A stretch of DNA of 41,187 nt from Candidatus Hydrogenedentota bacterium (GTDB taxonomy: Bacteria > Hydrogenedentota > Hydrogenedentia > Hydrogenedentales > SLHB01). Below are positions 23,312 to 33,120 of the stretch, piece after piece; position 1 is the stretch's first letter; the number at the start of each line of letters is the position of its first letter. A model generated the notes under the pieces. It saw nothing but the letters and a program-made list of their open reading frames with translations, had not been told where the DNA came from and ran no database searches. Location: contig JACRLJ010000017.1 in the NCBI GenBank assembly GCA_016215105.1, forward strand, positions 16,456 through 57,642. Reading direction: 5' to 3'. Made by a program: the position numbers and the translations under genes.

Positions 23312-26300
23312 CTAGCGATAGTCGCCCTGCAAGCAGAAGGGCGCCCAGTGGAACGGGCTCGGGTACTGCTTCATCGTGGCGAGTTTCGCCTGCCGCAACG
23401 CCTCGGCTTTGTTCATCGTCTGCAAGTTCGTGTAGAAGCGTTCCATCAGGAAAGCCGTCGAGCGGTCGTCGACGGTCCAGAGGCTGGCCACGACGGACGG
23501 CACGCCCGCGGCGAAGATGCCGCGCGTTAGCCCCATCAGTTCGTTGCCCATGGACAACTCGCCCAAGCCGCTGTTGCACGCGCTCAGCACCACGAGCGAT
23601 GCGGACAAATTCATCTCGAACACCTCACCGGCGTGCAGGTAGGCATCGTCCTTCGTGTCCGGGGCAAAGCGCAACGAGGAGAGCATGGGATCGTCGTGAT
23701 TCAATTCTCCGTGGCAAGCCAGGTGGAGGATGTCGCAATCCGCGGCGTGAGCCTTGAGCGCATCTTCGGTCGCCTCGTCAAAGGTCAGCACGTCGGCTTT
23801 GGAGAAGAGACTTTGCAGGGCTCTTACTTCCTCTTCGGCGTGCACGAGCCGGAAGGCGGGGTTTTTCAGGTTAGGGTTGCCGAGGGCCAGGATACTGCCT
23901 TTGCGATGGCGCTCCTTGTCCATGCACACCTTTAGGATGTTGGCGCTGGGCGTGTAGGCCACGGCATGGTCTTCGATGAAATAGCGTCCTTTCTCGTCTT
24001 GTAGCGCCTCGAAGGGCAGATAATTCAGAACGTTGTCTGGCGAGATGTACACCAATTCGGTATTGAGATAGGGCAACACCGGTTTGAGCAGGAGAGAGTA
24101 TAGCTTCCTGGCGGCTGCAGAGCTCGCCGGGGCCTTCGAGCCCGCCTTTGGTTGGGCCTTTTCGACATTGAGGTCGCGGGTACCTTCAACTGAAATGCCG
24201 AGGTCCTTGCGAAACGCCACGATCAGATCGCGGACTTCCCGTCCGTCCACATCGGGAATGCGTATGCCGATTACGCCGTCTTCGCTGGCCAAGATCACGG
24301 TGTTGTTGTCTTTACCCAATTCCATCATGAAGCTGACCAGCGTTACGCCCTTGAGGCAGGGCTGGATGTCTTTCCACTCGGCGACGCGCGCGCTTTCGAA
24401 GCTAGTCAGTTCGAGTTTGGCCGCGCCCACGTCTTCTTTTAGCCGCTGATAGCTGGTTTGTTCGACGGTGAGATTGCGTTCGAGTCCGCGCAGCGAGTCC
24501 GCGGCGCCATCGGACCTGGCCTTGGTAACCTGCGCGGCCAGATTCTCCAACTTGGCCAGAACGACGCCCTGTTCTGCCTCGCGTTCCTTAACGAGGCCTT
24601 TTTTTTGGTCACGGCTTCCAGACTCAATAGGTCAAGCAAGGCGCGGCCCTTGTACTCTTCAGCGTATTTGAACGCCTTTTCGTAATCGCCTCTTTCGGTG
24701 TTGTGTTGTACGAGCCAGAGGCAGGCGCGCTCGAAATCCAACCCTACCGAACTCCGTTTGAACTTGTCCGAACCCACCCGGTCGCGAATGGCGTTGGTCA
24801 CCGCCAAAGCTTTCTCGTGATACTTCAGACAGGCATCCAAGTCCTTCTGCTCGGAGAGGTAGTGCTGAGCAATGTTGTTGTAGAACAGCGCGACGCCATC
24901 CCAGTATTCTTTGGGCGGAAGAGAATCGAAGTACCTGAGCAGGCGCTTCAGAATAGCGAACGAACCTGCTCTGTCGTTTGTTCTGTCGCAATACTGGGCA
25001 GCCAGGCCGGCGAGCTTGACGTCGTACCGGTCGGTGACATCGCCCGTCGACGGCACTTTCTTGAGCAACTCCTCGTAGAGTTCCTTGGCGCGGGGATCGT
25101 CGACACCGTGACACGCGAGCATCAAGCCAGCTCTGAAACTACGACCCGATAGAAGTTCCGCAGGCGCGCCTGCCCGCTGGTAGGCCTGTTCCGCCTGTTC
25201 GCAGTAGCGGATGGCGCTTTCCTCGTACGTCTTCTTCGTCTCCTTGCCAGTCGCCTGTAAGTCCAGGTCGGGCCGGATCGCCAAGTCGAAGTTCGCATGG
25301 GCAAGGTACTCGTAGGCAAAGCCAAGTTGGAAGGGGTAGTTCACTTCCTCGAACACTTCTGCGGCCTTAGGAGCATGTTCTAATACCTTCTCGGCCTGCC
25401 CGACGTTGCCGTATTGGTACGCCAACTGCAGTTCGATCCAGCCGTGTTGCCACAGCGCGTCAGGAGCGGGCTCAGGTGGAATCACAGCCCCTGCTTTCTC
25501 ATACTCCGCCACGGCGCGGTCGGGCCGATGATTATCGCGATGCCTTTCCGCAATTCCCAGATGCGCACGGTACGCGGTCCAGGATGGCGTATCCGAGATC
25601 AGGCTTCGCGTGAAGTCCGTGTAATCCTTGTATTCTTTCTTCTCGGTCTTTGGGGCCAGGTCAGGCGCTTTCTCCATTGATGTCATAGCGGAAGCGTAGT
25701 CGCCCGCCATGCGTGGCGCGTCGCCAAGCCACCTCCAGACGCGCGCCGGGCTCTGGGTCGAATCGGCGGACTGAGCCGCTAGCGCGGCCCTCTGCAGCAA
25801 AGGGATTGCCTTTTCGTACCGGCCTGCCTGGGTGTGGGCGTATCCCAACTTTCCAAGGAGACGTGCGTTGTCTGGCGCCAGATTGGCGGCTGTCTCGTAT
25901 GACTCGAGTGCTTCGTCCTTCGCGCCGTTGGCGTCTTGAAGCCATCCAAGACGTTCGTAGACTGTCGAGCCCGCGGCGCCAAGTTCGATGAGCTTTTTGA
26001 CGTACTTCTCAGCGGGCCGGCGATTCTCAACCGATTTACCGTAGGACGCCCAGTAGGTGTGAGCCATGCTCAGGGCCTTCAATAGCGCAACGTCGTTAGG
26101 GTGCTGCACGAGGCCCTCCCGGCCCACGGAGGCGGCTTCCGGGTAGTTCCCGTCAGCGGCGAGTTGCTCCACGAGTTTGGCGCGCACGGCGACGTCGTTT
26201 TCGTTGGCCTGAAGTTGGCGGCGAAGCTCGTCGGCCGGCGCGCTGCGCCCCAGAGAGCATGAAACGAACAACAGGCTCGACGAGACGAGCAGGATAGCGA

Positions 26301-26382
26301 TGGCGCAGCGCACCGGGCGGCCGCCACGATTGAATCGGCCCGGTGCGCTGAACCTCGAGGAGTCTCGTCTGGTGCTCGTCAT
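23312..26382 (-). CDS. TPR-CHAT lipoprotein, split by a -1 frame change at 24598-24604
   Basis: The first frame (from ATG 26382) encodes a signal with lipobox-like FVSC (about residue 42) and many TPR-type helices up to YKGRALLDLLSLEAVTKKK. It then leaves frame and ends at 24439. The -1 frame continues from the same point as GLVKEREAEQGVVLAKLENL and runs to 23312, giving a CHAT peptidase domain with the His in HLACHGE and the Cys in SACNSG. The intact paralogue at 30331-33120 shows that the two parts belong to one chain of about 1020 residues. The break is in an A8 run carrying A AAA AAG. Either slippage makes both a TPR-only and a full protein, or the gene is broken, or one A is missing from the assembly. 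It starts three bases after the upstream gene's stop (TAAACAATG), so translation is probably coupled. Confidence 0.82.
24576..24604 (-). promoter_or_regulatory. candidate -1 frameshift site: slippery heptamer and hairpin
   Basis: On the minus strand, in-frame A AAA AAG (24604-24598) is followed directly by a hairpin: GCCTCG (24597-24592) pairs with CGAGGC (24581-24576), and CGTT/AACG can extend it in an alternative fold. The zero frame reads T-K-K-K-A; a -1 slip reads T-K-K-K-G-L-V-K and restores the CHAT frame. The hairpin is closer to the slip site than usual (normally 5-9 nt), so transcriptional slippage on A8 is an equal possibility. Confidence 0.5.
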
Positions 26383-26385
26383 TGT

Positions 26386-27435
26386 TTATTTCGCGTCCGT
26401 GGTCCCTCGCAGCGCTCGTTCAATCCGGATTTCGAGGTGGGACTCGGCCCAGGCGTTCTTTTCGAGCGAATCCACCACCGCTTGAAGGTCGCGCGTCGGG
26501 CTGTAGTTTCCGTCGTTGATCGAACGAAACGACTCTTGAGAGAAATCCTCGGCGAACAGGGGGATCTTCTTGGTGGTGGCGAAGAGTTTCAGTTTCTCGA
26601 TGCCCGGCGGGTCCGTGACGCGAATCTTGAACCCGGCCTGCTCGCTGGGCAAGACGTATTCGCGCCCCGCCTTGATCTTGTTGTCTGTCATGAGCGAATT
26701 AGGGAATAGCACGTGGATCGAACCACTGGTCGTAAAGTCGAAAATCGTCACATAGCAGTCGCGATCCGCCGTGAAGCGCAACGTGAGGAAGTCACCGACG
26801 CGGTAGGAGGGGATCTCGGTGGGCTTCGGGCCGTTTTCGACGGAAAACGCCACGTGGAAACTGGCGCTGTCGGCCTTGATGCGGTCGATCTCCGACCACA
26901 AGGGGCTGATGAAGGTCTTGATCGTCTTGCGTGTCGTGATCTTCACGACGGCAACGGATTCGGCCGTTTCGACTTTGACAAGACGGGCATGAATCTCGAT
27001 GTTCTCGCCCAAGTCGGTCACCGTGCCTGCGACGATGCCGTGAGCGCCGAGCAATTTCCCCACTTGGACGGACGTGGCCGGATCGACCAGGCCGGAAGCG
27101 CTGAGTTTCTGTTCCGCCATGATCTTGTCGAGCAGTTCCCGCTCGAGAACGCGAGCCGCCTTTTGTTCGGACAGCGTTGTGGCGATACGTTCCGACAAGA
27201 GCGAGCCCTCAATCGACTTGATGCCGTCTGAATAGGGGAACGGAAACACCACAATGGTGTTGCCGCCAAGCTGGGCCAGATTTGACACCGTCATGTCCGC
27301 GATCTGTTGCGCGGGATCGGCCGGCTCCTCCGCAAAGACGGGGCCGCAGTCCAGCGTCAACGCGGCGAGCATCAGCGCCACCTGGGCTAGCAGCTTCCCG
27401 CGCCGCCGGCCAATGTGGAGTTGACGCGACTTCAT
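26386..27435 (-). CDS. exported CsgG/FlgO-like protein with C-terminal DUF4384
   Basis: 349 residues. The ATG at 27435 overlaps the stop of the M56 gene (ATGA), which fixes the start. A signal peptide follows (about 1-36, LLAQVALMLAALTLDCGPVFA). Residues about 55-180 are CsgG/FlgO-like: IVVFPFPYSDG, RVLERELLDKIMAEQKLSASG, SVQVGKLLGAHGIVAGTV. Residues about 215-310 look like DUF4384 (YRVGDFLTLRFTADRDCYVT, HVLFPNSL, AGREYVLPS). DUF4384 is often found with caspase-like and CHAT proteins, which fits the neighbours. Its CsgG block resembles the one fused to the M56 protein upstream (RLVERGQLEKALTELKLNQTG), so the two may interact. Role: probably an envelope component of the system. Confidence 0.8.
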   Translation of the reverse strand: MKSRQLHIGRRRGKLLAQVALMLAALTLDCGPVFAEEPADPAQQIADMTVSNLAQLGGNTIVVFPFPYSDGIKSIEGSLLSERIATTLSEQKAARVLERELLDKIMAEQKLSASGLVDPATSVQVGKLLGAHGIVAGTVTDLGENIEIHARLVKVETAESVAVVKITTRKTIKTFISPLWSEIDRIKADSASFHVAFSVENGPKPTEIPSYRVGDFLTLRFTADRDCYVTIFDFTTSGSIHVLFPNSLMTDNKIKAGREYVLPSEQAGFKIRVTDPPGIEKLKLFATTKKIPLFAEDFSQESFRSINDGNYSPTRDLQAVVDSLEKNAWAESHLEIRIERALRGTTDAK

Positions 27436-29723
27436 GGCTTGGCTACCGCCGGAGTAGCGCCGGCCGGCATTCTCTTGTCCCAATAATCGGCCATCTCTTT
27501 CGCCAGTTTGATTCCTAATTCGCCGCCGCTCTGACGCAAGGCCTTCTTCCCCGCAGTGTGTTCGCTCAGGTCGGCCGCCGAACTATGCTGGCTGGTCGCG
27601 CACGCCACGGCCTCGGTCTTGGTGTCAATCACCTTGATCTCGACCCGCGCTGTACATGACTTGAACCCATAGTTCTCGCCGGCGGCCTCGCTGAACGCCT
27701 CGCCGATCACGAAGAGGTCAACATTCTGTTTGACCTTTTCAATCTCCTTATTCTTCATAATCTCGGACGGACTTTGGAAGCCAGCCGTCAACTGAGTCTC
27801 CGTTCCTTGACCTTGTCCGCCTTGGGGCGCCGCCGCGGGGCCGTGGAATAGGCGCGCCCACCAACTGGAAGATTCCTTATTCATCAACGTAGAAATGTCC
27901 ACCACGCGGTACCCGGCGCGCGTCAGCGTCGAAATCAACTCATTTTCTCCGGCCGGATCGGGTACCCATGTTCCAATGTGGTGCTCCGGTATGCTCACGG
28001 CCACCGTTGGCAAGGTCCGGTTCGCCAGTTGCGCGCGAAGCGCGTCAACAATAGCGGTCTGTGCGGCGTCCGCCGCCGCGCCCTTCCCGAGCGATAGGCC
28101 GTCCAGGCGCTTCAGAACCGCGTCCGCAATTGCGTCTGCGAGTCGCAGGGCGCCTTCGTTTGGTTTGGCCGTGACACGGAGCGCTGAAATCTCGGAAGTC
28201 TGCGTGTCAATCAATTTGACCGTACACACCCAATCGTCCACGGCCTTCATGAGTTTTCCTGATATGAAGATGCGCGCGCCGACAACCTGGCCTACCTGGG
28301 TGGCCGTGCCCGAGTCCACCAAGCCTGTTTGATTGAGCTTCAGTTCGGTCAAGGCCTTCTCCAACTGGCCGCGTTCGACCAAGCGAACTTGGGCGGAGGC
28401 AGACAACCGTTCCGACACCAGTTCGTACAGTTGAGAGCTTATTTCACCCAACGAAGCGTCTGTTCCCAACCGGCTAAAGTCGATTAAGGCTACGCCGAGC
28501 GTTGCAGACTCGGCCGGTTTCGCGGGCGCCGAGACCGTCGAAACGGCTGGCGCGACGAGGGCAGTGGGGGAAGGGACTTGCGCAATCTGCACACGGCCCG
28601 ATTCGCTTGCCGGGGCTTGCGTTTCAAGGTGGACTGCGGCGGTCGCTGGGATGTGCAGCGTCATTAGCACCGCCAATGCCGCCGCCGTGGCGATCATGCC
28701 GCCGGGCAGCCACGCCGCGTTTCCGGTGGTTTCGGACGACGGTGGGGTCACCAGTCGGCGAATGCGCGTGAACAGCGAGCCCCCATTTGCCGCGAGAGCG
28801 ACCTGTGGTCCGGCCTGCGCCAACTGCGCCAGACCGGTCAGCGCGTGGGCGTAACACAGTTTGTCGCCGCACGCCGCGGCAGCCAAGTCATCACAGGCGT
28901 GCTCCCGTTCAATAGACACCTGGCGCGAAACCCACCACACGGCCGGGTGATAGAAAAGCGCGACTTCGATCGCACATTGCATGAGGTGGACCAGATAGTC
29001 ACTGCGCTTCACGTGGGCCAGTTCGTGCGCGAGCACGGCCTCCAACTGTTCGTTCGGCAGGCCCACCAGAGTGGCTACGGGAAAAAGGATCACCGGCCGT
29101 AACCACCCAATCAGGACTGGCGTCGCGACGAGCGACGATTCGAGAAGCGTGACCGCCTTGGAGATGTTCAACTGTTCCGCCAGTCGTTCCAATCGCTTTT
29201 CCCACACAGCGCCCAGGGGCTGCACATTGCGCCGCTTTAATCGTTCTGCCTGGACGCATCCGCCCAGGAGCCGTAGCGACAGCGCGATCACGCCAACAAA
29301 CCAGCCCAGCGCCATCCAAGGGAGTGTCGGTTCGAGAAAGGCTTCTAGGCGCGCCGTCCAGGACCTGCGACTGGCGCGGCTGACGTCGTATGCCGGTGTT
29401 GCCGTAGCCTGGACGGAATTTGAATTGTGCGATATTGAATTTGGTGGCGCTGCTGGGTTTCCCGAAACGGAAGTAGTTTCCGCGCTCACGGATGAATGTG
29501 AAGGGGAAAGAATCGCAAAGGTCACTAGCGGCATGACCGCCATCGAAAGAAGCGCTACACAGGACACAGTATACCGGAGGTTCGGCGCCGCCCCTCGCAA
29601 GAGAAGCAGGAGAACGGCAAGTAGAATCGCCACTACCGCTCCTTGCCAAAGAAAATGAACCAGGGTCAAGCCCAGTTGCGCCAGTTCGGAATTTGCCAGT
29701 ACTCCAGTCAACGTTGTGCTCAT
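27432..29723 (-). CDS. BlaR1/MecR1-type M56 membrane metalloprotease fused to CsgG-like domains
   Basis: 763 residues. Helices near 15-42, 48-72 and 134-155 plus one at about 343-362 give the BlaR1-like four-helix layout. The zinc motif HELAH is at 233-237 and the third ligand region is EREHACDD. In BlaR1 this cytoplasmic-side site cuts the BlaI repressor after a signal from the outer C-terminal domain. Here that domain is not a penicillin-binding fold. It is a CsgG/FlgO-like unit (about 415-555: LGVALIDFSRLG, RLVERGQLEKALTELKLNQTG, QVVGARIFISGKL) and a second diverged unit (about 575-745). The start overlaps the blaI-like gene by ATGA and has AGGGG six bases upstream. The signal sensed is therefore not a beta-lactam by homology; it is unknown. 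Confidence 0.88.
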   Translation of the reverse strand: MSTTLTGVLANSELAQLGLTLVHFLWQGAVVAILLAVLLLLLRGAAPNLRYTVSCVALLSMAVMPLVTFAILSPSHSSVSAETTSVSGNPAAPPNSISHNSNSVQATATPAYDVSRASRRSWTARLEAFLEPTLPWMALGWFVGVIALSLRLLGGCVQAERLKRRNVQPLGAVWEKRLERLAEQLNISKAVTLLESSLVATPVLIGWLRPVILFPVATLVGLPNEQLEAVLAHELAHVKRSDYLVHLMQCAIEVALFYHPAVWWVSRQVSIEREHACDDLAAAACGDKLCYAHALTGLAQLAQAGPQVALAANGGSLFTRIRRLVTPPSSETTGNAAWLPGGMIATAAALAVLMTLHIPATAAVHLETQAPASESGRVQIAQVPSPTALVAPAVSTVSAPAKPAESATLGVALIDFSRLGTDASLGEISSQLYELVSERLSASAQVRLVERGQLEKALTELKLNQTGLVDSGTATQVGQVVGARIFISGKLMKAVDDWVCTVKLIDTQTSEISALRVTAKPNEGALRLADAIADAVLKRLDGLSLGKGAAADAAQTAIVDALRAQLANRTLPTVAVSIPEHHIGTWVPDPAGENELISTLTRAGYRVVDISTLMNKESSSWWARLFHGPAAAPQGGQGQGTETQLTAGFQSPSEIMKNKEIEKVKQNVDLFVIGEAFSEAAGENYGFKSCTARVEIKVIDTKTEAVACATSQHSSAADLSEHTAGKKALRQSGGELGIKLAKEMADYWDKRMPAGATPAVAKP

Positions 29724-30115
29724 CGTTTGCCCCTTTTCTTCTCGACATTGTCGAGCAGCTTACGAATCCGGCCCAACTCGCCGGCGCTGATCTCTTTCGC
29801 GCGAATCGCGTGAACCAGCAGTTTCTCGTACGAACCGCCGAATAGGCGGTCGAGCATTGTGCCTACGAATTTGGACTGGACCTCGTCTTGGTTTACGGCT
29901 GCCTCATACACATGACTTCGCGAAGTCTCGTCCCGCTTCACGAGACCCTTCTCGGCCATGATTTGCATCAACTTCAGCGCGGTGGTGTATCCGGTATCTC
30001 TGAGCCTGTTTAGCACCTCGCACACCTCGCGCACGGTTGCGCGTTCTTGCCGCCACAGGATGTGCAGGATTTCGAGTTCGGCCTCGGTCGGGCCTTCGGT
30101 GGGTCGTCGCGCCAT
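29720..30115 (-). CDS. BlaI/MecI-family transcriptional repressor
   Basis: 131 residues, typical length. The ATG at 30115 is set by GGAGG five bases upstream. The winged helix-turn-helix is clear: PTEAELEILHILWRQERATV, then VCEVLNRLRDTGYTTALKLM and the wing KGLVKRDETSRSHVYEA. The C-terminal dimerisation helices follow. Family members bind operators with dyad symmetry as dimers and are inactivated by cleavage by an M56 protease, which is the next gene. The operon promoter carries a palindrome that is very likely its own operator, so it should be autoregulated. Confidence 0.93.
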   Translation of the reverse strand: MARRPTEGPTEAELEILHILWRQERATVREVCEVLNRLRDTGYTTALKLMQIMAEKGLVKRDETSRSHVYEAAVNQDEVQSKFVGTMLDRLFGGSYEKLLVHAIRAKEISAGELGRIRKLLDNVEKKRGKR

Positions 30116-30151
30116 GAGTTCCTCCCCGGGACTGCCGTCCCATCGAAAGGG

Positions 30152-30181
30152 ATTATATACGAGATAATTCGTAGTTGTCAA
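30152..30181 (-). promoter_or_regulatory. consensus promoter of the leftward operon
   Basis: Minus strand TTGACA (30181-30176), an 18-base spacer, TATAAT (30157-30152): both boxes are perfect consensus. Predicted start near 30145, giving a 30-nt leader to the repressor ATG. The operator fills the spacer. Confidence 0.85.
30158..30173. promoter_or_regulatory. predicted BlaI operator 1
   Basis: Palindrome TACGAGATAATTCGTA, perfect TACGA/TCGTA arms around six bases. It abuts the -10 of the leftward promoter, so bound repressor would block RNA polymerase. It differs by one base from operator 2 at 30226-30241. Confidence 0.8.
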
Positions 30182-30217
30182 GACCCTTGTTTTTTGAAAC
30201 GCGGAAACACAGCCCCC

Positions 30218-30247
30218 TTGACTTCTACGAGGTAATTCGTATATCAT
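30218..30247 (+). promoter_or_regulatory. promoter of the rightward TPR-CHAT gene
   Basis: TTGACT (30218-30223), an 18-base spacer, TATCAT (30242-30247); TATATC at 30240-30245 with a 16-base spacer is an alternative -10. Predicted start near 30254, about 75 nt before the ATG. It is arranged around the operator exactly like the leftward promoter. Confidence 0.75.
30226..30241. promoter_or_regulatory. predicted BlaI operator 2
   Basis: Palindrome TACGAGGTAATTCGTA, with the same TACGA/TCGTA arms as operator 1, placed inside the spacer and next to the -10 of the rightward promoter. The two operators are 68 bases apart from start to start, so the repressor should control both directions. Confidence 0.8.
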
Positions 30248-30330
30248 GGCGTCATGAGGCATGAGCGGCGCCAAGACGATCAAAGGCGCTCCGCCGGCGC
30301 GGAGCGGCAAACAAGACAGAACGGGGCGTT

Positions 30331-33120
30331 ATGGTAAAAGCGGTGTTTCTCCGGTGGGGTGTGGTCGTCTTGGCCGCCGTTATGTTGATTCCGCTACTGA
30401 CCTGCGGCGGTCCGGATTCGGGGGCGGGAGTGGATCTTGCCGATCCAGCGCGGCTTGCCGTAACTATCCGGGAATTGATCGCCAAGGAGCAATTCCAATC
30501 CGCAGTAGAATTGGCGGAGCAGGGGCTGAAGGAGCATCCTGACGACGGGGACGTTCTCAAGGCCGCGTCAAACGCGTATGCGTCCTCGGGCTTCCGGCAG
30601 ACCAGCAATGCTAAGTTATCTGAGCGAGCGCTTGAACTCGTTGAGCACGCGAGAGATCTCGGTATTCAGGATAGCGAAGTATATAACCGCTTAGCCTATC
30701 TTCAGGACGCGTTGGGAAGACGTGACCAGGCAGTCGAATCATACCGAACACTCCTGGAAGTAGCCCCTAACGATATCTACGCGCTAGTCCATCTGGGGTT
30801 TCTATACAAGAATTCCGGCAAATATGAAATGGCGCTGTCTCTCCTGACTAGGGCCTCCAGATTAATTGTCAAGGACTCAGCTTCACCTGTGCAACCTTAT
30901 TTGCCCTTGTTATACCTGGGTGACGCCCAGCGCCTTCTGGGGGATTACGCTGAGTCTGTGGAAAGCATGCAAAAAGCCCGCGAATCAGCGCCAAAAGAGA
31001 TGCGGGATGAACTAGCGCAGTACGTCGAGTTTACCCGGACCTTAACGGCGGAACAGTCCTCGTGGCCAGCCTTTTGGAACCACTATACATTGGCAAAACG
31101 TCATCAGGAATCCAAGCGCCGCGACCGGGAGGCCGCTGAATTTGAACGAATGGTTGAACTCGTTCCGAACGACGGAAAGGAAGAGTCCGTCAGCCAATTA
31201 GGTTGGGCGCATTGTTGTCTTGCCGTTGATTACTTGGGACTGAAGCAGTTTGAACGATCTCGAGATCATGCCCTTAAGGCCATCGAAATACTTAGTCAGT
31301 TGAAACTACCGGAAATGCTGGCGGATTCCTACAGTTACCTTGCGGAAGCGTATGACCACCTTCAGGGGCGGGAGCTTGCGGTGTTGAAAGACCTGGACAC
31401 GGATGCGGTCAGGACCTGGGAGGCTGACTTTCGGGAGATTGCGAAGGACGAGCAAGGGTCCTTGGACTTGTATTTGCGCCTCGAGAAGTATTTTGACTCG
31501 CTTCCTCCCGAAAAGACCTGGGACCGAATAGCGGGCAATTTCATAGGTATGGCGGAACGCGTGTATAAGCTGCATGGTGACGCGGAGGGGCGCATGAAGT
31601 ACCGCGAGAAGGCGCTCGAGGTTGCGGAGGGAATTCGCGGCCGGATGGACAACGATAAGTTTCGCCGCAGTTCCGTGAATGGCGCCTTCCAGAACGCGTG
31701 CAGTTCGCTCGTATCACTGAATGTCGAAAAAGGGGACTGCGAGAAGGCGTTCCATTACGCGGAACTATACAAAGGGCGTGCGCTGTTGGATTTGCTTTCC
31801 TCGGACGGTGTATCAATCGTTTCTCACTCGGTGAAACGCCGCGAGCGTGAGCAGCGCGCCGCGGGATTTCGCATCGCCAAGCTGGAGAACGAAGCGAGCC
31901 GCGCAGCGGCCTCAGGCGCGGGCAGCAACGTGCGGGATGTCGAGCGTGACTTGTCGGTCGAGAAGACCGCCTACCAGCGTTTGTCGGAAGATGTGAGTGT
32001 GTCGAAGTTGGAGCTGTCCAACGTTCGTAGCGCGGACGTGGCGAACTGGGCGGACGTCCAGCCCATGATCAAGGGATTTACCATCGTCGACTACGTAATC
32101 ATGCCAAAAGAGTTTAATTGCGCATTGATCGTCTCCGAGGACGGGATTAAGGGGGTCCCGCTGCCGATCAAGAACGGCCGGGAATTGCAGCCGCTGGTCG
32201 AGGCGTTCCGGAAGGAAATCGGCGTCAAATCCGCGGCCACGCGAGACTTGAACGTCGAGAAAACCGGGGAGTCCAAAACAGGCGCGGACAAGGAGGCAGA
32301 TGCGGCAGTAAACGGAGCGGGAAAGAAGCTCTGGGAGTTATTGGTCGCGCCGGTTCTACCCTACATCAAGACGGACCACGTGGTAATTTCGTCGTATGAC
32401 ATTCTCAACTACGTGCCGTTTGAAGCGCTACAGGACAAGGATGGCCGCTATTTTATCCAGGACCATTCCGTGTCCTACATACCCAGCGTGAGTGTATTGA
32501 AACTGTGCATGGCGAAAGAACGTCGCGGAAAGTCCAGTGTGTTGGCCCTTGGCAACCCCAATCTTCAAAACCCGGCCTTCCGCCTGTTCAACGCCGAGAG
32601 CGAAGTCAAAACGCTCGAAGGCATGTTCCCCAAGGTCGAGGCGCTTACCTTTGATGCGGCCACTGAGACCGCGTTCAAACAAAAGGCGTCACAATACGAC
32701 ATACTTCACTTTGCCTGCCACGGAGAACTGAATCAGGATGACCCCATGCTCAGTTCGCTGCGTCTTGCGCCCGACGCGGATAACGACGGCTATCTGCACA
32801 CAGGGGAAATTTTCGAGATGCGCCTTTCGGCCTCGCTGGTGGTGTTAAGCGCCTGCAATAGCGGTGTGGGGGAATTGACCACGGGAAACGAACTGATGGG
32901 GCTGACCCGTGGCTTCTTCTTCGCGGGGGCGCCGTCCATAGTCGCGAGCCTATGGACGGTGGACGACCGCTCAACGGCCTTTCTCATGGGCGAGTTCTAC
33001 AAGAATCTTGGCGCGATGACCAAGGCCGAAGCGCTACGCCAAGCCAAACTCGCCACCATGAAAGAATACCCAAGCCCGTTCCATTGGGCTCCGTTCTGTC
33101 TCCAGGGGGACTATCGATAG
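30331..33120 (+). CDS. TPR-CHAT protease-like lipoprotein, intact paralogue
   Basis: 929 residues. The ATG has GGGG five bases upstream. The N-terminal hydrophobic segment ends MLIPLLTCGG, a signal peptide and possible but imperfect lipobox (Thr before Cys). TPR-type helices cover about 45-510, and a charged helical linker about 510-590 leads to the CHAT domain. The caspase-like dyad is present: His797 in HFACHGE and Cys842 in SACNSG. The C-terminal 200 residues are very close to the split gene at 23312-26382, including the identical end SPFHWAPFCLQGDYR. CHAT proteins are cysteine peptidases; TPRs usually bind regulators or substrates. Export suggests an envelope target. Predicted to be under the same BlaI control as the leftward operon. 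Confidence 0.9.
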   Translation: MVKAVFLRWGVVVLAAVMLIPLLTCGGPDSGAGVDLADPARLAVTIRELIAKEQFQSAVELAEQGLKEHPDDGDVLKAASNAYASSGFRQTSNAKLSERALELVEHARDLGIQDSEVYNRLAYLQDALGRRDQAVESYRTLLEVAPNDIYALVHLGFLYKNSGKYEMALSLLTRASRLIVKDSASPVQPYLPLLYLGDAQRLLGDYAESVESMQKARESAPKEMRDELAQYVEFTRTLTAEQSSWPAFWNHYTLAKRHQESKRRDREAAEFERMVELVPNDGKEESVSQLGWAHCCLAVDYLGLKQFERSRDHALKAIEILSQLKLPEMLADSYSYLAEAYDHLQGRELAVLKDLDTDAVRTWEADFREIAKDEQGSLDLYLRLEKYFDSLPPEKTWDRIAGNFIGMAERVYKLHGDAEGRMKYREKALEVAEGIRGRMDNDKFRRSSVNGAFQNACSSLVSLNVEKGDCEKAFHYAELYKGRALLDLLSSDGVSIVSHSVKRREREQRAAGFRIAKLENEASRAAASGAGSNVRDVERDLSVEKTAYQRLSEDVSVSKLELSNVRSADVANWADVQPMIKGFTIVDYVIMPKEFNCALIVSEDGIKGVPLPIKNGRELQPLVEAFRKEIGVKSAATRDLNVEKTGESKTGADKEADAAVNGAGKKLWELLVAPVLPYIKTDHVVISSYDILNYVPFEALQDKDGRYFIQDHSVSYIPSVSVLKLCMAKERRGKSSVLALGNPNLQNPAFRLFNAESEVKTLEGMFPKVEALTFDAATETAFKQKASQYDILHFACHGELNQDDPMLSSLRLAPDADNDGYLHTGEIFEMRLSASLVVLSACNSGVGELTTGNELMGLTRGFFFAGAPSIVASLWTVDDRSTAFLMGEFYKNLGAMTKAEALRQAKLATMKEYPSPFHWAPFCLQGDYR

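Follow-up and report, generated by a model that had tools for sequence, protein, structure and literature searches.

What do a BlaI repressor and an M56 zinc-protease command when they are encoded beside caspase-like CHAT proteases and no beta-lactamase? This question is raised by a locus of an uncultivated Candidatus Hydrogenedentota bacterium, of which a stretch of 41,187 nucleotides (hereafter the window) was analysed. To our knowledge, the signals and targets of M56/BlaI pairs are mostly unknown outside beta-lactam resistance. The original prediction had described a divergon in which a leftward set of blaI, an M56 protease gene with a CsgG part, a CsgG/DUF4384 gene and a TPR-CHAT gene faces a rightward, paralogous TPR-CHAT gene. 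Gene calls and Pfam confirmed this set, the operon lying on the minus strand and the facing gene on the plus strand, with one correction, a frame break in the leftward TPR-CHAT gene (copy a, see below). The genes and protein parts are as follows:

29720..30115, minus strand: BlaI/Penicillinase_R repressor, 131 aa from its ATG (Pfam Penicillinase_R 7e-27; PDB BlaI 1sd4 1e-11)
27432..29723, minus strand: M56 zinc-protease with C-terminal tandem CsgG-like part, read as antirepressor and sensor (Peptidase_M56 9e-26)
27471..28496, minus strand: CsgG2 domain, residues 410-751 of the M56 protein, likely the extracytoplasmic sensor (profile A4; structure model)
26386..27435, minus strand: exported CsgG/DUF4384 protein (Pfam DUF4384 4e-25, CsgG 1e-11)
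24597..26382, minus strand: TPR part of TPR-CHAT copy a, with N-terminal signal and possible lipobox FVSC (TPR matches)
23312..24596, minus strand: CHAT part of TPR-CHAT copy a, His and Cys motifs intact (CHAT 1e-69)
30331..33120, plus strand: TPR-CHAT copy b, 929 aa, with N-terminal signal, possible lipobox LLTC and C-terminal CHAT (CHAT 1.5e-67)

The overlapping or near-overlapping stops and starts described for the leftward set were found to be ATGA overlaps at both the blaI/M56 and the M56/CsgG junctions and a gap of 3 bases between the CsgG and TPR genes, an arrangement that appears as in translational coupling. The locus has a sensor kinase, an NHL-repeat protein and an ABC transporter as neighbours.

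The repressor carries the Penicillinase_R winged helix (94 bits against a cut-off of 22.6; the value of 7e-27 was obtained on a longer open frame) and shares 52% identity with its counterpart in the equivalent divergon of a related genome, G027. In the M56 protein, the Peptidase_M56 domain spans residues 30-298 and retains H233-E-x-x-H237 and E272, and the catalytic motif HELAH...E is invariant in all three loci of this kind (window, G027 and G065). The protein also matches the BlaR1 structure 8exs (3e-15). No cleavage site was recognised in BlaI: Asn101-Phe102, which we take to be the site cleaved in S. aureus BlaI, is not conserved in the alignment with the BlaI structure 1sd4. The locus shares with BlaR1-BlaI and MecR1-MecI of S. 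aureus the BlaI gene beside an M56 gluzincin with HEXXH...E, the divergent output, the operators in promoters and self-regulation (PMC9834060). It departs from them in its sensor, CsgG2 in place of a penicillin-binding domain, and in its outputs, TPR-CHAT and CsgG/DUF4384. Since the C-terminal part of the M56 protein gave CsgG and LpoB matches only, with no penicillin-binding (transpeptidase-like) domain, and the protein scored 81 bits against the cut-off of 400 of the NCBIfam model blaR1_generic, it is BlaR1-like in circuit design yet is not a BlaR1.

The original prediction had noted that a penicillin sensor is missing. It is indeed absent, and this can now be refined, as its place is taken by CsgG2, a tandem CsgG/LpoB-type domain situated where BlaR1 carries the penicillin sensor. 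The Pfam CsgG match in the C-terminal part of the M56 protein is above cut-off and is accompanied by a match to LpoB. The structure model of the whole M56-CsgG protein (mean pLDDT 52, with the M56 half poorly modelled) was set aside and the CsgG2 part alone was taken (pLDDT 73). This model found LpoB first (3e-6, TMt 0.65), followed by CsgG, the TolB N-domain, PelC and FlgT, all of them components of the periplasm or associated with the outer membrane. Two related alpha/beta halves seem to make up CsgG2 in tandem: strands and helices recur in the same order along the model, and hhalign between the halves gave p 0.0013 at a probability of only 19%. In the model, the fold is that of LpoB, CsgG and the TolB N-terminal domain, but the M56 protein carries it as a tandem, fused to the protease.

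Within Hydrogenedentota, profile A4 (CsgG2) was found at full length in 3 of 68 genomes, from three families, in each case as an M56 fusion, and the domain is 48-51% identical among these loci; in other phyla CsgG2 occurs as free-standing exported proteins with N-terminal signals. BlaR1 has its sensor domain on the outside of the cell and its protease on the cytoplasmic side (PMC9834060). Because a hydrophobic stretch at residues 336-366 precedes CsgG2 in the M56 protein, and because the free CsgG2 proteins bear signal sequences, a predicted position of CsgG2 outside the inner membrane agrees with the BlaR1 layout.

The control of the two arms was read from the 215 bp between blaI and TPR-CHAT copy b, in which the following features were found:

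30152..30181, minus strand: promoter of the blaI operon, TTGACA-N18-TATAAT, sigma-70-like (12/12 match)
30158..30173, no strand: putative operator TACGAGATAATTCGTA in the spacer of the blaI-operon promoter (palindrome; conserved in G027)
30218..30247, plus strand: promoter of TPR-CHAT copy b, TTGACT-N18-TATCAT (10/12 match)
30226..30241, no strand: putative operator TACGAGGTAATTCGTA in the spacer of the copy b promoter (palindrome; conserved in G027)

The same 16-bp palindrome therefore lies within the -35/-10 spacer of both divergent promoters, as originally predicted, and these are the only two promoter-embedded copies in the genome. The motif TACGA-N6-TCGTA occurs three times in 6.68 Mb, twice at the divergon; the third copy sits in a PBP1C-like coding region and was set aside. 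The longer pattern TTGAC-N3-TACGA-N6-TCGTA is found exactly twice at 0 or 1 mismatch, both times at the divergon. A wider regulon of this BlaI was considered and rejected: at 2 mismatches the genome has 4 further sites, compared to 5 for a reversed-pattern control. The G027 divergon keeps both palindromes, TACGAAGATATTCGTA and TACGAAGGTATTCGTA. Since both spacers hold a site, the pair is unique genome-wide and both sites persist in G027 despite the divergence of the proteins, control of both arms by a single BlaI, as had been proposed, appears well supported from the DNA.

The classical consensus operator is [AG]NATTACA[AT]NTGTA (PMC5341023), and the divergon sites, TACGA-N6-TCGTA, do not contain its TACA-N2-TGTA core of MecI/BlaI operators. 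In the G065 operon the spacer of a TTGACA...TATTAT promoter holds a palindrome-like sequence of its own, CTACGTTTGTAG; the operator CTACATATGTAG of a BlaI-M56 pair on contig C25 of the window's own genome is similar to that sequence. That genome has 11 BlaI genes (L034-L044), and in most of the nine upstream regions examined a palindrome was observed in or beside a TTGAC-type promoter. As the sequence of this palindrome varies from gene to gene, many of the BlaI-M56 circuits of the genome look mutually insulated, and that of the divergon looks private.

A pattern-based scan of 84,980 GTDB genomes, the count of which is a lower bound, found M56-CsgG2 loci outside the window's genome only in G027 and G065, both Hydrogenedentota; the comparison thus has three such loci as its basis, all in draft assemblies. 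The divergon recurs in G027, where BlaI, M56-CsgG and CsgG/DUF4384 face TPR-CHAT, at ~45% protein identity, while G065 has blaI, M56-CsgG, CsgG/DUF4384 and an unbroken TPR-CHAT gene as one operon. The original prediction had staked itself in part on conservation of gene order and palindromes in relatives, and in this respect it holds, since the order is kept in G027 (and, as an operon, in G065) and the palindromes are kept in G027.

Judged by sequence, the switch itself has been exchanged. In its M56 part, G065 shares only 25-27% identity with the window and G027, and the G065 BlaI and M56 are 66% and 43% identical, respectively, to the pair on contig C25 of the window's genome. Trees in which the three loci form one clade were rejected (p-AU 2e-55 for M56 and 8e-7 for BlaI; the trees were built by a quick method, with large likelihood differences of 154 and 118); the window and G027 M56 parts may or may not be sisters (p-AU 0.39). 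G065 uses a different BlaI-M56 lineage, with CsgG2 and the outputs conserved and the switch exchangeable.

A further front end was observed in another phylum. On one short contig of a draft assembly (G273), a free exported CsgG2, a TPR-CHAT and a CsgG/DUF4384 protein (2e-132) are led by an ECF sigma factor and a zf-HC2 anti-sigma factor, and BlaI and M56 are absent from this cassette. ECF/anti-sigma pairs are a standard switch for envelope signals. Those ranking next among the free CsgG2 proteins (G142, G318 and G368) are also encoded downstream of such a pair on the same strand, so that all four best loci with a free CsgG2 sit behind ECF sigma and zf-HC2 anti-sigma, the zf-HC2 match of G368 being just under the cut-off. 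CsgG2 accompanies ECF/anti-sigma switches in one lineage and forms the receptor end of an M56 protein in another, which is best explained if it senses or reports the state of the envelope. Taken together, we incline, with reserve, to the view that TPR-CHAT, CsgG/DUF4384 and CsgG2 form a module that at least three unrelated front ends have come to drive (two BlaI-M56 lineages, where CsgG2 turned into the receptor domain of M56, and ECF/anti-sigma), and in which envelope surveillance commands extracytoplasmic caspase-like proteases. In the G273 cassette an exported reading frame (L115 4219-5000), split over two frames and with no Pfam match, also precedes TPR-CHAT; by its motif we presume it to be archaemetzincin-like.

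On the output side, the CHAT domains of the two window copies score 235 and 228 bits against a cut-off of 24, with the ACHGE and SACNS motifs conserved. The copies are sisters in the tree, 61% identical in their CHAT parts and 38% in their TPR parts; the loci of G027 and G065 have one CHAT each. Both CHAT proteins had been proposed to be lipoproteins. Anchoring is plausible given the hydrophobic N-terminal signals, but the lipoboxes of both window copies, LLTC in copy b and FVSC in copy a, are imperfect; possible lipoboxes elsewhere are LLGC (G027) and SSGC (G161). The CsgG/DUF4384 protein, in which the Pfam CsgG domain is above cut-off, is 58% identical in both relatives. Its gene adjoins a CHAT gene in six loci (window, G027, G065, G008, G273 and G161), in Hydrogenedentota and at least one other phylum, and in other phyla C14 caspase-like genes were found beside it in G293, G328, G308 and G315 (L122, L128, L141 and L161). 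Since it adjoins caspase-fold genes in both CHAT and C14 loci, CsgG/DUF4384 is a recurrent partner of caspase-fold proteases, most likely an envelope partner or substrate of TPR-CHAT and perhaps an anchor. In G008 (L069 2213-3208), close to the end of the contig, the CsgG/DUF4384 gene after TPR-CHAT contains an in-frame TAG.

Neither BlaI nor M56 was found near 20 other CHAT loci of Hydrogenedentota. Several other CHAT genes of this phylum (L203, L207, L211, L213 and L214), a number of them with an FHA-like start, adjoin ECF sigma-factor genes. The other CHAT gene of the window's genome (C168) was considered as linked to a nearby BlaI-M56 pair and was set aside, as it is of the CHAT-NTPase-TPR type and lies ~5 kb away on the opposite strand. 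At L068 11897-16221, ~5 kb from another BlaI-M56 pair, a trypsin-like protein is encoded after CHAT-NTPase-TPR genes, an arrangement with a conflict-type look.

The leftward TPR-CHAT gene had been described as one gene. Both of its domains are present, but it is not a single open frame: the TPR ORF (24439-26382, minus strand) and the CHAT ORF (23312-24550, minus strand) are read in two frames that a -1 step connects, and two features were located at this step:

24599..24606, minus strand: A8 tract with A_AAA_AAG, the -1 frame junction of copy a (sequence scan)
24576..24597, minus strand: stem-loop just 3' of the A8 tract (-12.1 kcal/mol)

The A8 tract is the only A/T run of at least 7 in the window and holds its only A_AAA_AAG, and the stem-loop has z-scores of -3.3 on 25 nt and -1.5 on 49 nt. 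Copy a thus possesses the slippery heptamer and downstream stem-loop of programmed -1 frameshifting. Neither copy b nor the G065 copy, both unbroken, has an A run. A recent indel, an assembly error and ribosomal or programmed slippage at A_AAA_AAG all fit the break. That copy a is a dead gene, which would leave the leftward arm without CHAT output, is suggested by the failure of the TPR and CHAT frames to join and is a real possibility, though not the reading we favour: both frames are otherwise open, the CHAT branch of copy a (0.17) is shorter than that of copy b (0.24) and this CHAT part is no more distant from G027. No relaxation of constraint is seen in the CHAT domain of copy a.

Other readings of the whole locus were weighed. 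BlaI and M56 are homologous to resistance regulators and the LpoB fold hints at peptidoglycan synthesis, which would suit an ordinary BlaR1-kind circuit of resistance to beta-lactams or other cell-wall antibiotics with the CHAT genes as passengers. Such a circuit is most improbable here, as the original prediction had also held: the M56 protein has no penicillin-binding domain, the gene set contains no beta-lactamase or PBP, the operator pair is predicted to govern a CHAT arm, and the same outputs recur in G273 without BlaI and M56. The CHAT proteins could also be taken for the killing arm of an anti-phage or conflict system acting on infected cells, since CHAT proteases act in type III-E CRISPR and other conflict systems (PMC10028731). 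The Csx29/Csx30/CASP-sigma system resembles the present loci in having a TPR-CHAT protein tied genetically to a transcription factor, as with the ECF sigma factor of G273; unlike the Csx29 craspase, the CHAT proteins here bear export signals, BlaI and M56 stand in the place of Csx30, and the score with the NCBIfam model of Csx29 (NF041237) is 44 against a cut-off of 300. The PADLOC protein models gave marginal matches only, at best 1e-4 (BovA) and 7e-5 (a CARF model matched by BlaI), and the neighbours listed above also speak against killing of infected cells, which we regard as very unlikely. In the original reading of "envelope stress or defence", the former gains support from the ECF/anti-sigma swap and the latter finds none in PADLOC.

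The recurrence of a caspase-fold protease next to CsgG/DUF4384, in the six CHAT loci and four C14 loci, would suit a cell-death or pore device: the exported CHAT protein would cleave CsgG/DUF4384, and a CsgG-like pore would thereby open or be assembled, with BlaI and M56 only timing when the device is armed. Some bacterial caspase-like proteases activate gasdermins, which offers an analogy. Nevertheless, DUF4384 is without known function and no toxic phenotype is known, and we think such a device unlikely. A CHAT protein at the cell envelope is also exemplified by HetF of Anabaena (PMC8406250), but HetF is a divisome part that binds FtsI, and in the portion of this source available to us no BlaI/M56, CsgG or DUF4384 partner is described.

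We therefore return to the BlaR1/BlaI-type reading of the divergon, which we consider probable: a private, self-regulated circuit with a new sensor, CsgG2, and a new output, exported TPR-CHAT and CsgG/DUF4384. It is based on gene set, operators, conservation, domain make-up and switch exchange, all shown by sequence; beyond these, we infer the signal, the proteolysis of BlaI and the activity and target of CHAT. BlaI would bind the two operators in the divergent promoters and repress its own operon together with TPR-CHAT copy b. The M56 protein would serve as antirepressor, with its zinc-protease part toward the cytoplasm and CsgG2, of LpoB/CsgG/TolB-N fold, outside the inner membrane in place of the penicillin sensor. 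On meeting an envelope condition, CsgG2 would activate M56, active M56 would inactivate or remove BlaI, and loss of BlaI would allow production of the TPR-CHAT proteases and of CsgG/DUF4384, all of them exported. A response of BlaI also to a peptidoglycan fragment has precedent (PMC3305447).

In the literature searched for CHAT with BlaI/M56, or with DUF4384/CsgG, no paper described the gene set of the divergon, in which a BlaR1-like receptor is tied to exported caspase-like proteases. The circuit lends itself directly to testing, since its receptor domain, its repressor, both of its sites and its outputs can each be named. The lineage is very rich in M56/BlaI pairs. The exchange of switches between lineages that have a module in common suggests that CsgG2, CHAT and CsgG/DUF4384 are a single functional unit. 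The divergon may thus provide a handle on the role of exported CHAT proteins and of the uncharacterised DUF4384.
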